A stretch of DNA of 64,000 bases from assembly GCF_004331955.1 (NCBI RefSeq), contig NZ_CP036532.1:1488001-1552000 (forward strand), given 5' to 3'. This document shows, piece by piece, positions 3-11,366 of the stretch. Within the stretch, counting starts at the first letter, position 1; each line of letters starts with the position of its first letter. The translations under genes and the position numbers were made by a program. The notes under the pieces are model-generated. The model saw only the letters and a program-made list of their open reading frames with translations. It made no database searches and was not told the DNA's origin. Source of the DNA: Roseitalea porphyridii. Lineage in GTDB: Bacteria; Pseudomonadota; Alphaproteobacteria; Rhizobiales; Rhizobiaceae.

Positions 3-3000
3 GGCAATGTCTTCAATGTCGCCGGCGAGACCGAGGTCAACGCCACTGCAGGCTCGATCTCGGCCGAAAGCGGCAACGCCATCCTGTTCCTCGACCATTC
101 CCGCTTCGAGGCGGCCGGCGACATCTCCGGCGCCGACTTCATCACCACAAGGCGTCTTGGCGGCGGCCTGACCGGCGGCGGGTTCACCGAACGCACCGCG
201 CGCACCGGTGTCGCCGACATGGTGATCGACCAGAACGACGGCGCGCGCCTGTTCGCCCAGTCCAACGGCGGCGACGTGCTGCTGCGCGAACTGTCCGGCA
301 ACATCACGGTCAGCCAGGTGTCGGGCAACCGCGTCCGGCTCGTCTCGCCCGGCTCGATCTTCCGCGAGAACCGGCTCAACCGTCCCAACCCCGCATTCGG
401 CGCCGACACGCTGGAACTGATCGCCGAAAGCGGCGCCATCGGGACGCCGCAAGGGCCGCTGCCGGCCATTGTGGCGACACGCCTCGACGCCCGGGCGCTG
501 GGCAACATCTCCATCAGTTCGCCCTTCTCCGATCTGCCGGTCGGCCACGTCCAGTCGACCGATGGCGAGGTGTTGCTGACCTCGACCCGCTCGATCACCG
601 ACGCCAACGACAATGCCGTGCCCGACCGCCGCGCCATCGACGGGCTGCTCGACGAATTGTGGGACGAGATCGGCCTGCGCGATCTCGGAACGGCGTCCGA
701 CGGCCGGCGCGAGGAGGTCACGCGCGGGCTCGAAGCGGCCGAACGCGCCGATTACGAGTTCTACTGGTCGGTCCGCCGCCAGATCGAGATCACGCGGAAC
801 GAGACCGGCGAAGTCGTCGACAAGCGCGTCCGGGATCTGGGCTACGACGAGGACTACCAGTTCAAGTTCACCGACGAACAGGTCGACGCCATGCTCGATG
901 GCAAGGCGAGCGGCGTCCCGCTGACCCAGGAGCAGATCGACGCCGAGGCCGAGGCCAGAACCGAGGCCTACCACCGCATCCATGAGAAGTATGGCGAGGG
1001 GCCCTACGATGTCGATGTCCGCATCAAGCTCGATGATGAGATCGTCGCCGAGACGCAAAGGGCGATGTTCTTCACCGACGCGCAGCTTCAGAACCGGCTG
1101 CGCGCCGAGCTGGTGCTCGGCATCACCGACACCGAACTGACCATCGAGGAGGCCAACATCACCGCCGACACGGCGAACCTTTCTGCCAGCATTTCGATCG
1201 GCAGCCGCATCGAACCGGTCGTGCTGCGGGACGGGGACGAACTGACCGAGGAACTGCTCACCGCGCTTTGGACGGCCGAGCCGGGCGATATCGTTCGCAA
1301 GGGCGACCAGACGGTGATCACCATCTTCGACGATGTCGATGTCGATCTTCAGGGCGAATTGACCGCGTTCGCGTTCAACGACGCGCTGATCGGCTCGGAA
1401 GGCGATCTGCGGATCAATTCGGTCGACGCCAACGAGATCGTCCGTCTGAAGGCCGGCGGCTCGATCGTCCGCGCGCCGGGCGCGGGTGTCGACGACATCG
1501 TTTCTGGCAACCGGATCCTGCTGGAAGCCGCCCAAGGCGGCATCGGCACCAGCCCCGCTCCGGTTCGCGTCGGCACCGAGGGCGCCGAACCGTCCGTCTC
1601 CGCGCGGGCGAGCGGCAATATCTTCATCACCGCGAACGGCGATCTGCCGATCGGCACCATCTTCACCCCGTCCAGCGTCCGGCTGACCGCCGATGGCGGC
1701 ACGATCAGCGCCGTTGCCGGCCAGACCACCCCGCATGTGACCGCAACCGCGGCCTATCTCGCCGCCCAGGGCTCGATCGGCCCTGGTGGCAGGGCGCCGC
1801 TGGTCGCCGGCATCGACGGCGCGCCGGTCGTGGTGCGCACGCAATCGGGCGGCGGGGTCGCCTTCGACGTCGCGCCGGGCGAGACGGCGCGCTATTGGCT
1901 CGGCGGCGCAATCCTGCCGCAGACGATCACGATCGGCGGCGAGGGCGATCTCGAACTCGGCGATTCGATCTTCGCCTGGAACGCGATCGACATCGCGGTG
2001 GATGATCTGGACCTGTCGCAGTTCATGGTGTCGAACAATGGCGGCGGCATCGAACTGAACGTCACCGGCGAACTGGACGCCTCCTCGCCGGATGCCTGGA
2101 TCGGCGCCGTCGGGGGCCTGACGCTCGATATCGGTCGCCTTTTGACCGGAGATGAGGGCGCGCTGCGCATCGACACCGATCGTCTCGACGCGCGGATCGG
2201 GGGCGGCAACGCTCTTATCTCCAACGGTCAGCGCCTGCGGCTCGACGAACTCGTGCTCGATGGTGGCGGCGTGATGCAGCTTGTCACCGAAGGCCCGCTG
2301 ACGCTGAACGGCAAGATGGGCGTTGCCGGCGGCGGCACGATGGTCCTGACCGGTACGAACGGCATCGCGGGTACCGGCCAGCTCACCGGAGGACAGGCCT
2401 TCTTCACCGCCAACGCGGGCAATATCGATGTCGACCTGACGGTCGACGATCTGGACGTCCTGAACCTTGCCGCTTACGCCGGCTCGATCCTGGTCGATCT
2501 GGCGAGCGGCAACATGCGGAGCGATTTCGTCACGGCGGCGCAGGGCGATGTCTTCATCACCCACTTCAATGCGGGCGACGAGGTCGCGATCGAACGGATC
2601 GGCGCAGTCCAGGATCCGCAGATCGTGGCCTCCGCGTTCGGGTTCGACCAGTGGGGCGCCGAACCGGTCGATCTGCTGCGCGCATTCGACTTCCCGGCCG
2701 TGCGGCCCGAACTCTATACACCGACCGCGGTCCCCGGACCCGGTGAACCCGGCGAGGGCGGCGGCGAAGTCGGTGGCGGCGGCAACACCGGTGGTGGCGG
2801 CGGCGGCAATACCGGTGGTGGCGGCGGCGGCAATACCGGTGGCGGCGGCGGTGGAAACTCCGGTACTGGCGGCAACGCCGGCGGCGGCACCGGTGGCGGC
2901 AATGCCGGTGGCGGTACGGGTGGCGGCCGCAATCCGGGCGGCGTCATCAACGACAATGGACGGGTCCCCGATGGCATCGTCCGCGGTCCCGGCGGCAATA

Positions 3001-3314
3001 CCGGTGGCGGGTCGGGCGGCTTTGATCCGGGCGGCGGCAAGCCGGGCCTCGGTCCGGCGGGCGGCGGTTTCACGCCAGCCCCCGGAGGCGGCAACGGGCG
3101 CGGTCCCGGCCTTTCGAGACCGGGTGGAGGCGCGCCCGAGACCGGCGACGGACCGCTGTTCGAGACCCGCAGCACCGCCGGCGGCCCGAACGTGCGCATC
3201 CAGAACTCGACCGGTTTCGGCTCCGGTGGTACGAGCGGCGGGTCCGAACGGACCGGAGGCAGCGCGGACGATGAGGAAGAAGAGCGCGACGACGACCGCC
3301 GCGCGCGGCGCTGA
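3..3314 (+). CDS. Filamentous-haemagglutinin-like giant secreted protein, C-terminal part (5' truncated)
   Basis: The frame is open from the window edge, so 1103 residues of a larger protein are visible and its start lies upstream. The first 850 or so residues are rich in Gly, Ala, Asn, Asp and Ile/Val in short beta-strand-like steps such as GNITVSQVSGNRVRLVS and GDVFITHFNAGDEVAIER. This is the look of right-handed beta-helix adhesins of the filamentous-haemagglutinin type. A charged helical insert (around window 640-1060) interrupts the helix. The last 250 residues are a low-complexity Gly/Asn/Pro linker with tandem GGGGGGNT units, ending in an acidic then basic tail (DDEEEERDDDRRARR). No C-terminal toxin domain or beta-barrel is visible. 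The stop lies 44 nt inside the next gene. Secretion through a two-partner system is an inference; the signal peptide and any partner are outside the window. Confidence 0.7.
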   Translation, partial: GNVFNVAGETEVNATAGSISAESGNAILFLDHSRFEAAGDISGADFITTRRLGGGLTGGGFTERTARTGVADMVIDQNDGARLFAQSNGGDVLLRELSGNITVSQVSGNRVRLVSPGSIFRENRLNRPNPAFGADTLELIAESGAIGTPQGPLPAIVATRLDARALGNISISSPFSDLPVGHVQSTDGEVLLTSTRSITDANDNAVPDRRAIDGLLDELWDEIGLRDLGTASDGRREEVTRGLEAAERADYEFYWSVRRQIEITRNETGEVVDKRVRDLGYDEDYQFKFTDEQVDAMLDGKASGVPLTQEQIDAEAEARTEAYHRIHEKYGEGPYDVDVRIKLDDEIVAETQRAMFFTDAQLQNRLRAELVLGITDTELTIEEANITADTANLSASISIGSRIEPVVLRDGDELTEELLTALWTAEPGDIVRKGDQTVITIFDDVDVDLQGELTAFAFNDALIGSEGDLRINSVDANEIVRLKAGGSIVRAPGAGVDDIVSGNRILLEAAQGGIGTSPAPVRVGTEGAEPSVSARASGNIFITANGDLPIGTIFTPSSVRLTADGGTISAVAGQTTPHVTATAAYLAAQGSIGPGGRAPLVAGIDGAPVVVRTQSGGGVAFDVAPGETARYWLGGAILPQTITIGGEGDLELGDSIFAWNAIDIAVDDLDLSQFMVSNNGGGIELNVTGELDASSPDAWIGAVGGLTLDIGRLLTGDEGALRIDTDRLDARIGGGNALISNGQRLRLDELVLDGGGVMQLVTEGPLTLNGKMGVAGGGTMVLTGTNGIAGTGQLTGGQAFFTANAGNIDVDLTVDDLDVLNLAAYAGSILVDLASGNMRSDFVTAAQGDVFITHFNAGDEVAIERIGAVQDPQIVASAFGFDQWGAEPVDLLRAFDFPAVRPELYTPTAVPGPGEPGEGGGEVGGGGNTGGGGGGNTGGGGGGNTGGGGGGNSGTGGNAGGGTGGGNAGGGTGGGRNPGGVINDNGRVPDGIVRGPGGNTGGGSGGFDPGGGKPGLGPAGGGFTPAPGGGNGRGPGLSRPGGGAPETGDGPLFETRSTAGGPNVRIQNSTGFGSGGTSGGSERTGGSADDEEEERDDDRRARR
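2772..2861 (+). repeat. Tandem 24-bp coding repeats, Gly-rich linker
   Basis: One 18-bp unit is followed by three 24-bp units (starting at 2790, 2814 and 2838), each encoding GGGGGGN followed by T, T and S. They are nearly identical at the DNA level, so copy number could change by slippage. They sit in the flexible linker of the giant secreted protein. Confidence 0.8.
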
Positions 3315-4965: not shown

Positions 4966-5577
4966 ATGGCCACGCTTGAAAATCTCGACGATCTGGCGAG
5001 CACCGTCGCCGACACGCTCGGCGACATCGACCACGAGGCGCACACCGCCTGGGGCGAACTGTCGATCACCGTCGGCGTCGAGGATATCATCCCCACGCTG
5101 ACGCGGCTGCGCGATTCCATGCAGACCGGCTTCGTCTCATTCATCGACCTGTCCGGCGTCGACTATCCCGAGCGGGACAAGCGCTTTGACGTCGTCTACC
5201 ACCTGCTGAGCCCGACGCTGAACCAGCGGCTGCGCGTCCGGGTGATGACCGACGAGGAAACGCCGGTTCCTTCGGCCACGGGCGTGTTTCCCGGCGCCAA
5301 CTGGTACGAGCGCGAGGCCTACGACCTTTACGGGATCCTCTTCACCGGCCATCCGGACCTGCGCCGGCTGCTGACCGATTACGGTTTCGAGGGCCATCCG
5401 CTGCGCAAGGATTTCCCGCTGACCGGCTTCGTCGAGGTGCGCTATGACGACGAGGCCAAGCGGGTGATCTACGAGCCCGTCAGCCTGCGCCAGGAGTTCC
5501 GCGATTTCGACTTCCTGTCGCCGTGGGAGGGGACGGAGTATGTGTTGCCGGGGGATGAGAAAGCCGAAGGGAAGTGA
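4966..5577 (+). CDS. nuoC: NADH-quinone oxidoreductase subunit C
   Basis: The 203-residue '30-kDa' subunit of the peripheral arm is of usual length for the family. The signature [20 protein letters not shown] and the following [10 protein letters not shown] are present. The ATG at 4966 is used; a TTG three bases upstream is the only close alternative. The stop codon TGA (5575-5577) lies inside the left inverted repeat (5574-5603) of the four-helix-bundle cassette, so the repeat now defines the C-terminus. The end (PGDEKAEGK) looks normal, so function is probably intact. Confidence 0.96.
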
Positions 5578-5603
5578 ATGGTGAAGTGGTGAGTAGTGAA
5601 TAG
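5574..5603 (+). repeat. Left inverted repeat of the four-helix-bundle cassette
   Basis: This 30-nt stretch is built from degenerate GTGAATGG / GTGAATAG units. The reverse complement of 5996-6025 matches it at about 25 of 29 positions with one gap, starting with an identical GTGAATGGTGAA. It contains the nuoC stop codon and the GTG start used by the inserted gene. Confidence 0.8.
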
Positions 5604-5985
5604 TCGAGACCGCCACGCACCCATTCACGACTATCGGGATCTTACGGTCTGGAAGGATTCAATGGCGCTGGCAGTTGAGATTTATCAGTTGACGAAGTCC
5701 TTCCCGCCGGACGAGCGCTTCGGAATGAGCAGTCAAATGCGGCGATGCGCAACATCCATCCCGGCCAACATTGCCGAAGGATTCGGTCGGGAGAGCCGGC
5801 AGTCTTTCATCCAGTACTTGCGGATCGCGCAGGGCTCGCTGAAGGAACTTGAAACGCTCTCCGAATTGGCACGGCGGGTCGGCTTGCTGGGTGGAGATGA
5901 AAGCGAAGGGGTGGCCTCGAAATGCACGAGCCTTGGCAAGATGCTTCGGTCACTGATCCGCAAGCTCGAGCAAAAGGGCCGATAG
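5596..5985 (+). CDS. Four-helix-bundle protein (23S rRNA intervening-sequence / S23 family)
   Basis: This 129-residue protein carries the family signature: DLTVWKDSMALAVEIYQLTKSFP, then FGMSSQMRRCATSIPANIAEGFGR, then FIQYLRIAQGSLKELET. The family is best known from open reading frames inside intervening sequences of 23S rRNA genes and occurs scattered in genomes. Its biochemical role is not established. GTG 5596 is the first start after an in-frame stop at 5590; the next ATG (5662) would cut the conserved N-terminal motif. Base composition is visibly less GC-rich than the flanking nuo genes (a 60-nt sample at 5641-5700 is about half GC). With the flanking inverted repeats this marks an acquired insertion between nuoC and nuoD. 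Confidence 0.85.
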   Translation: MNSRDRHAPIHDYRDLTVWKDSMALAVEIYQLTKSFPPDERFGMSSQMRRCATSIPANIAEGFGRESRQSFIQYLRIAQGSLKELETLSELARRVGLLGGDESEGVASKCTSLGKMLRSLIRKLEQKGR

Positions 5986-5995
5986 CGTCGGCATG

Positions 5996-6025
5996 ACCAT
6001 TCACCAATCACCATTCACCATTCAC
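5996..6025 (+). repeat. Right inverted repeat of the four-helix-bundle cassette
   Basis: This 30-nt run of CCATTCAC-type units is the inverted partner of 5574-5603. It ends 8 nt before the nuoD ribosome-binding site (AGGAG, 6034-6038), so the insertion leaves nuoD translation signals intact. No flanking target duplication is evident. Confidence 0.8.
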
Positions 6026-6045
6026 GCGCCCGCCAGGAGCGCTCC

Positions 6046-7236
6046 ATGACCGAACACAACGTCCGCAACTTCAATATCAATTTCGGTCCGCAGCACCCTG
6101 CGGCGCACGGCGTGTTGCGCCTGGTGCTCGAGCTTGACGGCGAACTGTGCGAGCGCGTCGATCCGCATATCGGCCTGCTGCATCGCGGCACCGAGAAGCT
6201 GATCGAGCACAAGACCTACCTGCAGGCCGTGCCCTATTTCGACCGGCTCGACTACGTCGCGCCGATGAACCAGGAGCACGCCTTCGCGCTCGCGGTCGAA
6301 CGTCTTCTGGAGGTCGAGGTGCCGCGCCGGGGCCAGCTCATCCGCGTGCTCTACTCGGAGATCGGCCGGATCCTGTCGCACCTTCTGAACGTGACAACCC
6401 AGGCGCTCGATGTCGGCGCGCTCACCCCGCCGCTGTGGGGGTTCGAGGAGCGCGAAAAGCTGATGATGTTCTACGAGCGGGCCTGCGGCGCGCGTCTGCA
6501 CGCGGCCTACTTCCGGCCCGGCGGCGTCCACCAGGACCTGCCGCCCAAGCTTGTCGAGGACATCGGCGACTGGATCGATCCGTTCCTGAAGGTCGTCGAC
6601 GACATTGACGGGCTCCTGACCGGCAACCGCATCTTCAAGCAGCGCAACGTCGACATTGGCGTGGTCGATCTGGACGATGCCTGGGCCTGGGGCTTTTCGG
6701 GCGTGATGGTGCGCGGCTCGGGCGCGAAATGGGACCTGCGCCGTTCACAGCCCTACGAATGCTACGACGAGATGGAATTCCAGATCCCGATCGGCAAGAA
6801 CGGCGACTGTTTCGACCGCTATCTGATCCGCATGGAGGAGATGCGCCAGTCCGCCGCGATCATGCGCCAGTGCGTCGACAAGTTGATGAGCGCCGACGGC
6901 CAGGGCCCGGTTTCCGACACCGACGGCAAGATCGTGCCGCCCAAGCGCGGACAGATGAAGCGCTCGATGGAAGCGCTCATCCACCATTTCAAGCTCTACA
7001 CCGAAGGCTACAAGGTGCCGCCCGGCGAGGTCTACGCCGCCGTCGAGGCGCCCAAGGGCGAGTTCGGCGTCTATCTTGTCGCCGACGGCACCAACAAGCC
7101 CTACCGCTGCAAGCTGCGCGCGCCCGGGTTCGCGCATCTGCAGGCCATGGATTTCCTCAGCCGCGGCCACATGCTGGCCGACGTCTCGGCGATCCTTGGT
7201 TCGCTCGACATCGTGTTCGGAGAGGTTGACCGATAA
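6046..7236 (+). CDS. nuoD: NADH-quinone oxidoreductase subunit D
   Basis: The 396-residue '49-kDa' subunit, related to the hydrogenase large subunit, forms much of the quinone pocket with NuoB. The N-terminal [18 protein letters not shown] and the C-terminal ending [13 protein letters not shown] are hallmarks, and length is typical. ATG 6046 has a good AGGAG 8 nt upstream. Its stop overlaps the nuoE start by one base (TAATG). Confidence 0.97.
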
Positions 7237-8636
7237 TGTCCGTACGCCGTCTCGCCGAAGACACGCTCCAGCCCGAAGGCTTCAAGTTCGACCGCGCCAA
7301 TGCGGCCGAGGCCAAGGGGTGGATCAGGAAGTATCCCAAGGGCCGCCAGCATTCGGCGGTGATCCCGCTTCTGATGCTGGCCCAGGACCAGGAAGGCTGG
7401 GTGACCCGTGCCGCGATCGAGCATGTCGCCGAGATGCTCGATATGCCGCTGATCCGCGTCATGGAGGTCGCCACATTCTATACCCAGTTCCAGCTGGAGC
7501 CGGTCGGCACGAAGGCGCATGTGCAGGTGTGCGGCACCACGCCCTGCATGCTGCGCGGCGCCGAGGAACTGATGGCGGTCTGCCAGCGCAAGATCAACGA
7601 GCGCCAGTTCGTGCGCAACGATGCGGGCACGCTGTCCTGGGAAGAGGTCGAGTGCCAGGGCGCATGCGTGAACGCGCCCATGGCGATCATCGGGCGCGAC
7701 GCCTACGAAGACCTGACGCCTGAACGGCTCGAGGAGATCATCGACGCGTTCGAGGCGGGCAGGGGCGACGAGATCGAGCCGGGCCCGCAGATCGACCGGG
7801 TCTATTCGGCGCCGGTAACCGGCCTGACGAGCCTGCTCGACGATGACGGGAAAAAGCCTGCTTCAAGGGCGCGCAAGACACCGGGAACGAAGAGCAAGGC
7901 CGCCGCGGCCAAAGGACCGGATGCGGCCAAGGCCAAGCCCGGCACGGCGAAGACGAAGACCAAGGTCAGCCCGACGGCTGCGATCGCCTCCACCGCGAGC
8001 GCTGTCCGCCCCAGCAAGAAGCAGCCGGCCAAGTCCGTGGCCGAAGGCAATCCGACCATGAAGCTCGCCGCGACCGCCTCGGGCCGGGCCAAGAAGCCCC
8101 CGAAACGCTCCGAACTGACCGGTTCGGAGAGTCCGGCCGCGGCGGCACAATCCAGGGCGGCGGGCCGGGACACGCCGCAGACAGCGCCGAAGAGTCCGGC
8201 CCGCACCCGCAAGCCGGCCAAGGGCGCGCCGGCGGCCACCGCGCGTGGCGCCGCGTCCGACAAGACCGTCAAGGCCGCCTCGCAAAGCGGCACCAGGGCG
8301 TCGGGCGCCGCCATGCGCGATCCGGTGGTCCACGACGAGATGGGCGGCCTGCGCGCGGACAAGAACCGGCCGGCGGCGATGGAGCGTCCCGCCGCGCCCG
8401 ACGATCTCAAGCTGATCTCCGGCGTCGGGCCGAAGCTCGAGGAAAAGCTCAACGGTCTGGGCATCTACACGTTCGGCCAGATCGCCAAGTGGAAGAAGGC
8501 CGAGCGCGAATGGGTCGACGGCTATCTGAGCTTCAAGGGCCGCATCGAACGCGACGACTGGGTCAAGCAGGCCAAGGCCTTGGCCAAGGGCGGCGTGGAC
8601 GAGTATGTTCGTGTCTTCGGCAAGAAGCCGCGATGA
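7236..8636 (+). CDS. nuoE: NADH-quinone oxidoreductase subunit E with basic linker and C-terminal helix-hairpin-helix domain
   Basis: Residues 1-190 are a normal NuoE ('24-kDa' subunit) carrying the [2Fe-2S] cluster N1a on C99, C104, C140 and C144. The whole protein is 466 residues, about 250 longer than a minimal NuoE. Residues 205-380 form a Lys/Ala/Pro/Thr-rich, disordered, strongly basic linker. The last 79 residues (PDDLKLISGVGPKLEEKLNG to the end) form a helix-hairpin-helix domain with the IxGVGPKLE nucleic-acid-binding hairpin, of the type annotated as a FEN1-like or H3TH domain. NuoE extensions of this kind are recalled from Hyphomicrobiales. Its role is unknown. A paralogous domain ends the protein at 10392-11366. 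Confidence 0.92.
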   Translation: MSVRRLAEDTLQPEGFKFDRANAAEAKGWIRKYPKGRQHSAVIPLLMLAQDQEGWVTRAAIEHVAEMLDMPLIRVMEVATFYTQFQLEPVGTKAHVQVCGTTPCMLRGAEELMAVCQRKINERQFVRNDAGTLSWEEVECQGACVNAPMAIIGRDAYEDLTPERLEEIIDAFEAGRGDEIEPGPQIDRVYSAPVTGLTSLLDDDGKKPASRARKTPGTKSKAAAAKGPDAAKAKPGTAKTKTKVSPTAAIASTASAVRPSKKQPAKSVAEGNPTMKLAATASGRAKKPPKRSELTGSESPAAAAQSRAAGRDTPQTAPKSPARTRKPAKGAPAATARGAASDKTVKAASQSGTRASGAAMRDPVVHDEMGGLRADKNRPAAMERPAAPDDLKLISGVGPKLEEKLNGLGIYTFGQIAKWKKAEREWVDGYLSFKGRIERDDWVKQAKALAKGGVDEYVRVFGKKPR

Positions 8637-8886: not shown

Positions 8887-10191
<1,305 letters not shown>

Positions 10192-10391
10192 AATTTCGCC
10201 GAGAATTATGCTGCAATGCAGCACGCGTTCCCTTGCCTGTTCTCTTTGTGTTGATCGAAAGGGCCGGGCTAGGGGGCGAACGAGACCATGAAGAGACCGT
10301 TACCGGTCCGCCCGGACGCCGTTACGACGAGCGTCCGGCACGAGGAAACACCACGGAACGGCGAACGCAAGCGACAGCTGAGGAGAGACAC

Positions 10392-11366
10392 ATGTCGATG
10401 TTTCCGTTCGCAGACGACTGGATGAGCCCGCAGGCCAGGGAAAACCCGTTCGTGGCGCTGATGCCGGGCATGGAGCCGCTGCAGAAGACCACCGAAGACT
10501 GGCTTCGCGGCATGGGTGTGCCGAGAGTTCCGGACATGTCCGGCATGGCCGTGCTGCCCGACGCCAAGGCAATCGAAGCCAACATGGAGACGATGCTCAA
10601 CGCGGTGCCGGGCTTCGAGGGCATGCCGAATCTCGCCACTCATCCCGTGGCCGCGATGGCCGCCGGCACCGCCGTGTCGATGGGCGCGGCGAGCCAGATG
10701 ATGGGCACCATGTTCGGCGCGATGACGGGCATGATGGACACCGCCATGCGCATGCAGAAGGCGACCCGCGAGGTCTCGCCCTTCGCGCCGCCCGGGACGG
10801 ACATGACCAACCCGCTCAAGTTCGAGTGGGCGTTCGGCCTGGCTGAAGAGATGGCCGGGAATGCCGCAACCGTGGCCGAGACCACGCCGAAGGCCGAGGT
10901 CCGCGCGCCCCGCAAGAAGGCAACCGCCAGGAGCAACGGCAAGACGAAGCTCGCGCTGGAACCGGCGGCGGCCGTGGCGCCGACGCCCGATGGCGCGCCG
11001 GCCGCGACGATCCCCGCCGCGGAGGCCGTTGCGACCGAGCTTCCGGCCCGCCCCGGAGGCCCGGCCCCGCTCGACATCATGCCCGAGGATTTTCGTCAGC
11101 CACGCAAGGTGGAAAAGCCGGCATCGCCCGACGATCTGAAGATGATCTCGGGCGTCGGTCCCAAGCTCGAAAGCGTGCTCAACAGCCTCGGCATCTGGAC
11201 CTTCGCACAGATCGCCGAGTGGACCCCCGAGGAAGTCGCCTGGGTGGACGATTATCTCCAGTTCAAGGGCCGCATCGAGCGTGACGGCTGGATCGCCCAG
11301 GCTGCCGCGCTCGCCAAGGGCGGCCGCGACGAATATGTCAGGATGTTCGGCAAGGAGCCGCGCTGA
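10392..11366 (+). CDS. Met-rich protein with C-terminal helix-hairpin-helix domain, nuo-embedded
   Basis: This 324-residue protein has no assigned function. It starts at ATG 10392 behind GAGGAGAG. Residues 1-150 are rich in Met, Gly and Ala (GMEPLQ, AASQMMGTMFGAMTGMMDTAMRMQ) and may form an amphipathic helical region. Residues 155-245 are an Ala/Pro/Lys linker. The last 79 residues are about 73% identical, by eye, to the C-terminal domain of NuoE in this same operon (both share ISGVGPKLE, FKGRIERD and the ALAKGG.DEYVR.FGK.PR ending). The two proteins have therefore received the same domain by duplication. Location between nuoF and nuoG suggests a link to the NADH module; the Met-rich half could be membrane-associated. 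Both ideas are inference. Confidence 0.75.
   Translation: MSMFPFADDWMSPQARENPFVALMPGMEPLQKTTEDWLRGMGVPRVPDMSGMAVLPDAKAIEANMETMLNAVPGFEGMPNLATHPVAAMAAGTAVSMGAASQMMGTMFGAMTGMMDTAMRMQKATREVSPFAPPGTDMTNPLKFEWAFGLAEEMAGNAATVAETTPKAEVRAPRKKATARSNGKTKLALEPAAAVAPTPDGAPAATIPAAEAVATELPARPGGPAPLDIMPEDFRQPRKVEKPASPDDLKMISGVGPKLESVLNSLGIWTFAQIAEWTPEEVAWVDDYLQFKGRIERDGWIAQAAALAKGGRDEYVRMFGKEPR

Follow-up and report, generated by a model that had tools for sequence, protein, structure and literature searches.

The cassette between nuoC and nuoD in the 64,000-nucleotide stretch analyzed here (the window, positions 1488001-1552000 of a genome assembled as one contig of 3.54 Mb) is probably a minimal mobile element. 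It would belong to a widespread class with gene-free satellites, in which the IVP protein marks or delivers the element and host enzymes act on it. Anatomy, period, generality, lineage-specific repeat units, empty and re-occupied sites, copies elsewhere and gene-free arrays can be read from the sequences themselves, and movement of the cassette is strongly suggested by them. Recognition of the arms by IVP, wrapping by a pentamer, the use of host enzymes and active movement are steps that we infer. The original prediction, made from the window alone, had already proposed a minimal mobile element; what comparison appears to add is a repeat unit tied to the protein lineage, gene-free palindromes and the wide occurrence of the pattern.

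The cassette (5574-6025, 452 bp) consists of an arm, the IVP gene and the same arm inverted. It lies in a run of nuo genes, of which nuoB, nuoC and nuoD were named by family search and the others by eye, between nuoC (4966-5577, forward strand; PF00329, NF004733) and nuoD (6046-7236, forward strand; PF00346, NF004739). The left arm (5574-5603, forward) repeats a GTGAATG/GTGAATA-type heptad imperfectly about four times, and the right arm (5996-6025, reverse) is its inverse. Their outermost 12 bases are fully complementary, and the inverted-arm score of 25, against a control 99% level of 19, agrees with the 30-nt imperfect inverted repeats first described as framing the gene. The repeats do, as was proposed, supply both the nuoC stop codon (TGA, 5575-5577, forward) and the GTG start of the IVP gene at 5596, and they end before the nuoD Shine-Dalgarno sequence (AGGAG, 6035-6039), which lies in the stretch outside the right arm (6026-6045, forward). 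The cassette was also expected to be poorer in GC than its surroundings, and it is (0.562 vs. 0.644 for nuoC and nuoD); none of the 452-base segments taken every 50 bases over the 64 kb is as GC-poor. The suggestion that the repeats fold in RNA fared less evenly: the arms do pair in the predicted structure, yet 6 of 100 shuffled sequences fold equally well (z -1.9). Such folding may bring the cassette ends together, and IVP may move the element.

Two other features of the window were noted by eye. Upstream of the nuo genes, a 1031-aa ORF (219-3314) has a repetitive surface or filamentous look with a Gly/Pro-rich tail. A nuoE-like ORF has an extended linker rich in Ala and Lys, followed at the C-terminus by a stretch resembling a helix-hairpin-helix, the latter recurring C-terminally in an extra ORF between nuoF and nuoG (7236-8636 and 9927-11366).

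In many bacteria, PF05635 genes bear the annotation 'four helix bundle protein' or 'S23 ribosomal protein', with no function given. Profile matches place the 129-aa product of the IVP gene (5596-5985, forward) in this family, confirming the predicted four-helix-bundle gene: it matches PF05635 (E 2.9e-38, 130.8 bits, curated cut-off 33.8) and TIGR02436, four helix bundle protein (128.6 bits, cut-off 24), and is the sole PF05635 match in the genome. It is also the only gene found in the cassette, and its Pfam matches, PF05635 and a weak one to bAvd, indicate that no transposase is encoded. Family searches found no catalytic domain in IVP, that is, no known nuclease, recombinase or polymerase domain. 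The predicted structure is a four-helix bundle (mean pLDDT 91) whose monomer model is closest to Xcc0516 (2GSC, Z 20.7), then to 2RLD (17.9); the title of the 2GSC paper, which speaks of five four-helix bundles, is our source for the pentameric state.

The same model resembles the Avd proteins of retroelements (Z 14.4-15.1, rmsd 1.6-1.7 over 106-109 residues; unrelated bundles reach 12.7 at best). IVP might accordingly serve as the Avd of an element like a diversity-generating retroelement (DGR), partnered by a reverse transcriptase, with cassettes moving by cDNA. The fold shared with Avd of DGR complexes and with bAvd favors this, as does a Pfam match to bAvd (E 0.00028, 21.8 bits), albeit one under the cut-off of 40; the score against NF033474 (Avd), 23.2, is likewise under the family cut-off of 80. 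Against it, a search of 20 genomes for the reverse transcriptase family PF00078 left 11, the window's included, with no match. The enzyme might lie beyond PF00078 or have been lost since; we consider cDNA-based movement improbable.

Across the family, the IVP gene is present in 93 of 297 genomes, and in the window's genus in two of five. We fetched 111 loci, leaving about ten further places, mostly fragments, unfetched; arm scores were computed for 109, since L103 and L150 have fewer than 100 bases on one side. Inverted arms exceeded the 99% control level at 90 of these 109 loci (37 of 53 at nuoC|nuoD, where the other 16 scored at or under the cut-off, and 53 of 56 elsewhere). Compared as direct repeats, the arms exceeded it at one locus of 109, and left flanks set against the inverted right flank of another locus did so in 76 of 436 comparisons. 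A tandem period of 7 or 8 was detected in 89 left and 96 right flanks of the 109 loci, vs. one of 218 control windows. Where a unit was found in both arms (94 of 111 loci), the period was equal in 92 and the consensus identical in 54.

The units themselves vary by locus and include GTGAATG, GCGAATA, GTGAGTA, GGCAGTA, GGCAGTC and GTCGGTC, as well as octads such as GTAGGGCA and GTAGGGGA. Octad loci fall in one protein clade (30 rows, support 99/84) in a tree that left out four loci with internal stops (L048, L105, L139 and L162). The sole outlier is L143, whose arms disagree (7 and 8). Two members of the clade, L044 and L157, were assigned period 7, each from one arm. At the level of sequence, then, the repeat unit belongs to the IVP protein lineage. 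In 110 of 111 loci the ORF was poorer in GC than the sequence flanking it; omega was 0.05-0.17 in 12 of the 13 pairs yielding a value (0.43 in the remaining pair).

Every one of the 53 cassettes at nuoC|nuoD is oriented like the nuo genes. Other junctions occupied are S02 (glutamine-synthetase-like|FAD-oxidoreductase, 26 loci), S03 (ATP-grasp|alpha-E, 23 loci), S04 (acyl-CoA dehydrogenase|mmsB-like, four loci) and five sites with a single locus each, among them S05, S08, S09 and S11. Gene names at S02-S04, like those of rpsM and rpsK below, were read from translations by eye, and two edge loci were reassigned to their sites by reading. When 30 nuoC loci were sorted by eye, seven held IVP cassettes, 19 were short junctions of -1 to 27 bases, two held gene-free heptad elements of 184 bp (G133 and G035) and two held other ORFs. 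At L069 (in G182, gap 452 bp) and L082 (in G165, gap 212 bp) the small ORFs between nuoC and nuoD seem unrelated to IVP, which suggests that this junction accepts other kinds of insert.

Empty junctions, which the original prediction proposed to seek in relatives, occur in two genomes of the window's genus, G001 and G004, where nuoC and nuoD overlap (AAGTGACCGAA); the empty sites read AAGTGACC, nuoD beginning at an overlapping GTG. The occupied congeners G000 and G003 carry IVPs that are 53% identical and fall in two different supported clades, against identities of 82% for nuoC and 97% for the first part of nuoD. In seven of 17 same-genus nuoC|nuoD pairs, from five genera, nuoC is 91-98% identical but IVP 49-58%, and all seven differ in repeat unit. 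With two congeners empty and these seven pairs diverging beyond nuoC, relatives do not share one equally old cassette. The empty congeners, the mismatch between cassette and nuoC divergence and the copies at different sites described below all favor the earlier reading of a minimal mobile element, one that would have moved.

Mantel tests drew on 104 of the 111 loci (those with internal stops and those with no unit, such as L032, being left out), 48 of them at nuoC|nuoD. At these 48, unit distance correlated with IVP protein distance (r 0.52, p 0.0005) and not with nuoC distance (r 0.06, p 0.12; partial -0.10). IVP and nuoC distances were weakly correlated (r 0.27), reflecting some inheritance in place. 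Cassette and arms move together, largely independent of the host gene. Because unit and protein are physically linked, their correlation alone is no proof of recognition; it shows co-inheritance.

Two genomes hold related copies at two sites each. In G276, L103 and L129 are 84% identical over 438 bp, and the S04 copy (L129) is sister to the S02 copy in the tree. In G145, L035 and L125 are 73% identical over 467 bp, the S05 copy lying near the S02 copy. In both pairs similarity gives out about 8 bases or less from the arms' outer ends. The octad clade contains S02 copies together with copies at five more sites: those at S05, S08, S09 and S11 and L129 at S04 nest in the S02-copy clade, two of them sharing a genome with an S02 copy. 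S04 itself was taken by a heptad lineage and, separately, by an octad lineage. These relationships support relocation of the cassette as one unit. The best identity between copies at different sites is 83-84%; four genomes of one genus held no near-identical copies at new sites, no target-site duplication was seen by eye against empty sites, there being no near-identical pair to compare, and the phage records searched gave no match.

An alternative is that the sites are few and old, and that strains swap cassettes by homologous recombination through the conserved flanking genes, with no transposition. Such exchange would account for the concentration of 102 of 111 loci at nuoC|nuoD, S02 and S03, and copies at nuoC|nuoD could indeed also spread via recombination in their flanks. 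As the whole explanation we think it unlikely, since it leaves aside the copies nested in the S02 clade, the loss of similarity just outside the arms in the two same-genome pairs and the dispersal of gene-free arrays.

The original prediction had suggested looking for further repeat copies in the window's genome, and a search for the heptad repeats returned 34 overlapping hits, four of them in the cassette, against none for the reversed control. By eye, four or more palindromes built of the cassette's unit but lacking a gene were recognized, one of them between rpsM and rpsK. Across the family, at least five GYGAATR/GTMGGCA arrays outside fetched IVP loci were found in 69 of 93 genomes with IVP and in 23 of 204 without (p 5e-27), an odds ratio of 22.6 over the 297 genomes. 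In the 29 genera containing both states, the mean array count was higher with IVP in 22 and lower in four (p 0.0005). Of the short pairs of oppositely oriented arrays among the matches listed, at least 23 were arranged as in the cassette, 13-130 bp apart, and none the other way round. No IVP match was found in 23 gene-free palindrome loci searched; an automatic placing of these 23 relative to open frames was discarded, since the shadow frames of GC-rich DNA made it unreliable. Array-rich genomes with no detected IVP (G012 with 56 arrays, G274 with 53, G282 with 44) have perhaps lost it or hold it in assembly gaps. Separately, dispersed octad arrays in G163, G084 and G276 (L300-L325) are 95-100% identical to a cassette arm over about 57-67 bp. 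Several of these lie at contig starts, and short-read assemblies may therefore undercount such elements.

Tandem heptads are known from some bacteria with no IVP link in the accessible text of the reports (PMC4679880, PMC2700814), and non-functional arrays might grow by replication slippage, with templated hairpin repair accounting for the match between arms and the gene being an incidental neighbor. The regular presence of period-7/8 arrays on both sides of IVP and their co-occurrence with it genome by genome weigh heavily against such an origin, which is disfavored to the point of being very improbable. They likewise contradict a genome-wide scatter of repeats with no tie to this gene family.

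Beyond physical linkage, only matches in trans, between gene-free arrays and the resident IVP lineage, can point to recognition of the unit by IVP, and the evidence here is partial. Of 89 genomes typed, 39 had one arm type only. Among these, at least five GTMGGCA arrays were present in 10 of 11 genomes with that IVP arm type and in 5 of the 28 genomes with the other (p 4e-5); the corresponding comparison for GYGAATR was null (20 of 28 vs. 7 of 11 genomes). The four genomes of the GTCGGTC IVP clade held 22, 42, 42 and, in G207, two GTCGGTC arrays, a few of the counted arrays lying inside cassettes themselves, while 56 others held at most 13. With a threshold of 20, set after the counts were known and with G003 partly known beforehand, three of the four clade genomes and none of the 56 pass, G207 failing; these 60 genomes were chosen by hand.

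The rpsM|rpsK junction shows the same mixture. Its palindrome has GTGAATG units in G000 and GTCGGTC units in G003, each matching its own IVP lineage; mismatched are G007 (GCGAGTA, with IVP arms of GGCAGTA) and G011 (an octad version, with GGCAGTC in the fetched IVP arms). Among IVP-less genomes, G001 and G012 carry a palindrome there and G004 none. The units of these palindromes (L257-L265) differ by genome, as if hairpins at a fixed position had been replaced or rewritten.

Hairpins at conserved junctions such as this one also suit a host regulon, which is the main rival to mobility. IVP would be a beneficial RNA-binding protein, the palindromes its gene-end hairpin sites, stabilizing or separating operon messages, and useful cassettes would spread by ordinary gene transfer. 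Purifying selection on IVP and its Avd-like fold, from a family acting in retroelement ribonucleoproteins, agree with such a role, as does the transcript-stability function suggested for cyanobacterial STRR hairpins in the accessible part of PMC2670836. The patchy presence of IVP (93 of 297 genomes), the occupation of one site by different lineages in the same genus and the related copies at unrelated sites look instead like mobile DNA. We regard the regulon as a serious but clearly less probable account, and the two can hold together.

The mobile reading gains breadth from other phyla. IVP genes on genome contigs were scanned for with an alignment as query (a single-protein query gave none), yielding 80 loci in named genomes, many of them Rhizobiales and some repeating loci of the family set. 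Inverted arms scored above 19 in 64 of the 80 and direct ones in none; period 7 was found in 65 left and 61 right flanks and period 8 in five and three, respectively, whereas one of 157 control windows had period 7. Outside Proteobacteria, arms scored above 19 in five of seven cyanobacterial loci, one of three planctomycete loci and the single loci from Acidobacteria and Chloroflexus; the one locus in a MAG labelled Chitinophaga did not. Plasmid copies of IVP with heptads visible by eye occur in Calothrix, Nostoc, Geminocystis and Riemerella (Bacteroidota). Judging by these flanks, heptad-flanked IVP genes recur in other phyla. Recent movement of two Calothrix plasmid copies was considered and set aside: the plasmids share neighboring genes as well as arms, and the copies were therefore counted as one inherited locus.

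The closest known kind of element is the ORF-bearing intervening sequence (IVS) of 23S rRNA genes, for which mobility has been proposed; that of Coxiella burnetii carries a PF05635-type ORF in 428 nt (PMC4990558, as far as its accessible text goes). Shared features are a single S23/IVP-type ORF, similar length (428 nt vs. 452 bp) and terminal inverted repeats that pair as RNA, a pairing only predicted here (fold z -1.9). By its site, in a protein operon and outside the 23S rRNA gene, the cassette fails the definition of such an IVS. Further differences are the dispersed gene-free arrays and, possibly, the arms of tandem heptads with unit variants per lineage. In REPIN/RAYT systems, dispersed short palindromes are tied to one protein gene, some genomes hold several families, and co-evolution of protein and repeat has been suggested (PMC3116915, accessible text). 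The present system similarly has dispersed palindromes sharing sequence with IVP flanks, the exceptions being G207, G007, G011 and the GYGAATR comparison; unlike REPINs, it has its gene inside the palindrome and repeats in the form of tandem heptads, and the Y1 (RAYT) transposase family PF01797 has no match in the window's genome and some in only four of 20 searched genomes. Terminal inverted repeats and gene-free derivatives recall MITEs and insertion sequences, from which the cassette differs in having no transposase; by eye, no target-site duplication was seen. By enzyme, it fails the definitions of REPIN/RAYT, DGR and IS elements alike.

Work by Mazel in 1990 and Elhai in 2008 reportedly concerned cyanobacterial repeats. 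Cyanobacterial STRRs are 7-bp tandem repeats forming intergenic hairpins, with no function known (PMC2670836, accessible text). Several cyanobacterial IVP genes in our set are likewise flanked by heptads, which may or may not be units of named STRR families; no IVP link appears in the accessible text of PMC2670836. Nor did the accessible text of the literature searched, which fell short of most subscription journals, link IVP genes to tandem-heptad arms.

The element we propose would usually consist of about four tandem heptads or octads, an IVP gene and the same array inverted, some 450 bp in all, placed at gene junctions. IVP, an Avd-like bundle whose relative 2GSC is pentameric, would most likely bind the tandem arm units, one per subunit, and thereby mark or deliver the element; the number of units per arm, about four, and the clade-specific period are in keeping with such a pentamer, which is no proof of it. 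As IVP has no known catalytic domain, cutting or copying would probably fall to host enzymes. Insertion at gene ends would be tolerated, since a stop codon is present in many units (though not in GTCGGCA) and a start codon in some. The gene-free arm palindromes would be non-autonomous derivatives, in a MITE-like or REPIN-like relation to the cassette.

The arm and dispersed-hairpin sequences offer a direct and cheap test of whether each IVP binds its own lineage's unit. A mobile element of this kind would unite three unexplained things: rRNA intervening sequences, intergenic heptamer hairpins and Avd-like proteins outside retroelements. IVP-family genes are also described from cas loci, one such place lying between cmr3 and cmr2 (PMC3936711, accessible text), and intercistronic insertion of cassettes could explain such genes inside cas operons. 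More tentatively, as a possibility we would not yet bet on, the cassettes may represent a new class of mobile DNA in several phyla, whose only protein, an Avd-like pentamer, reads the arms with each subunit taking one heptad (or, in one clade, one octad), and sends cassette and hairpin satellites into gene ends via host enzymes, possibly by homing at the RNA level. If that is true, heptamer families such as the cyanobacterial STRRs would be satellites of these elements.
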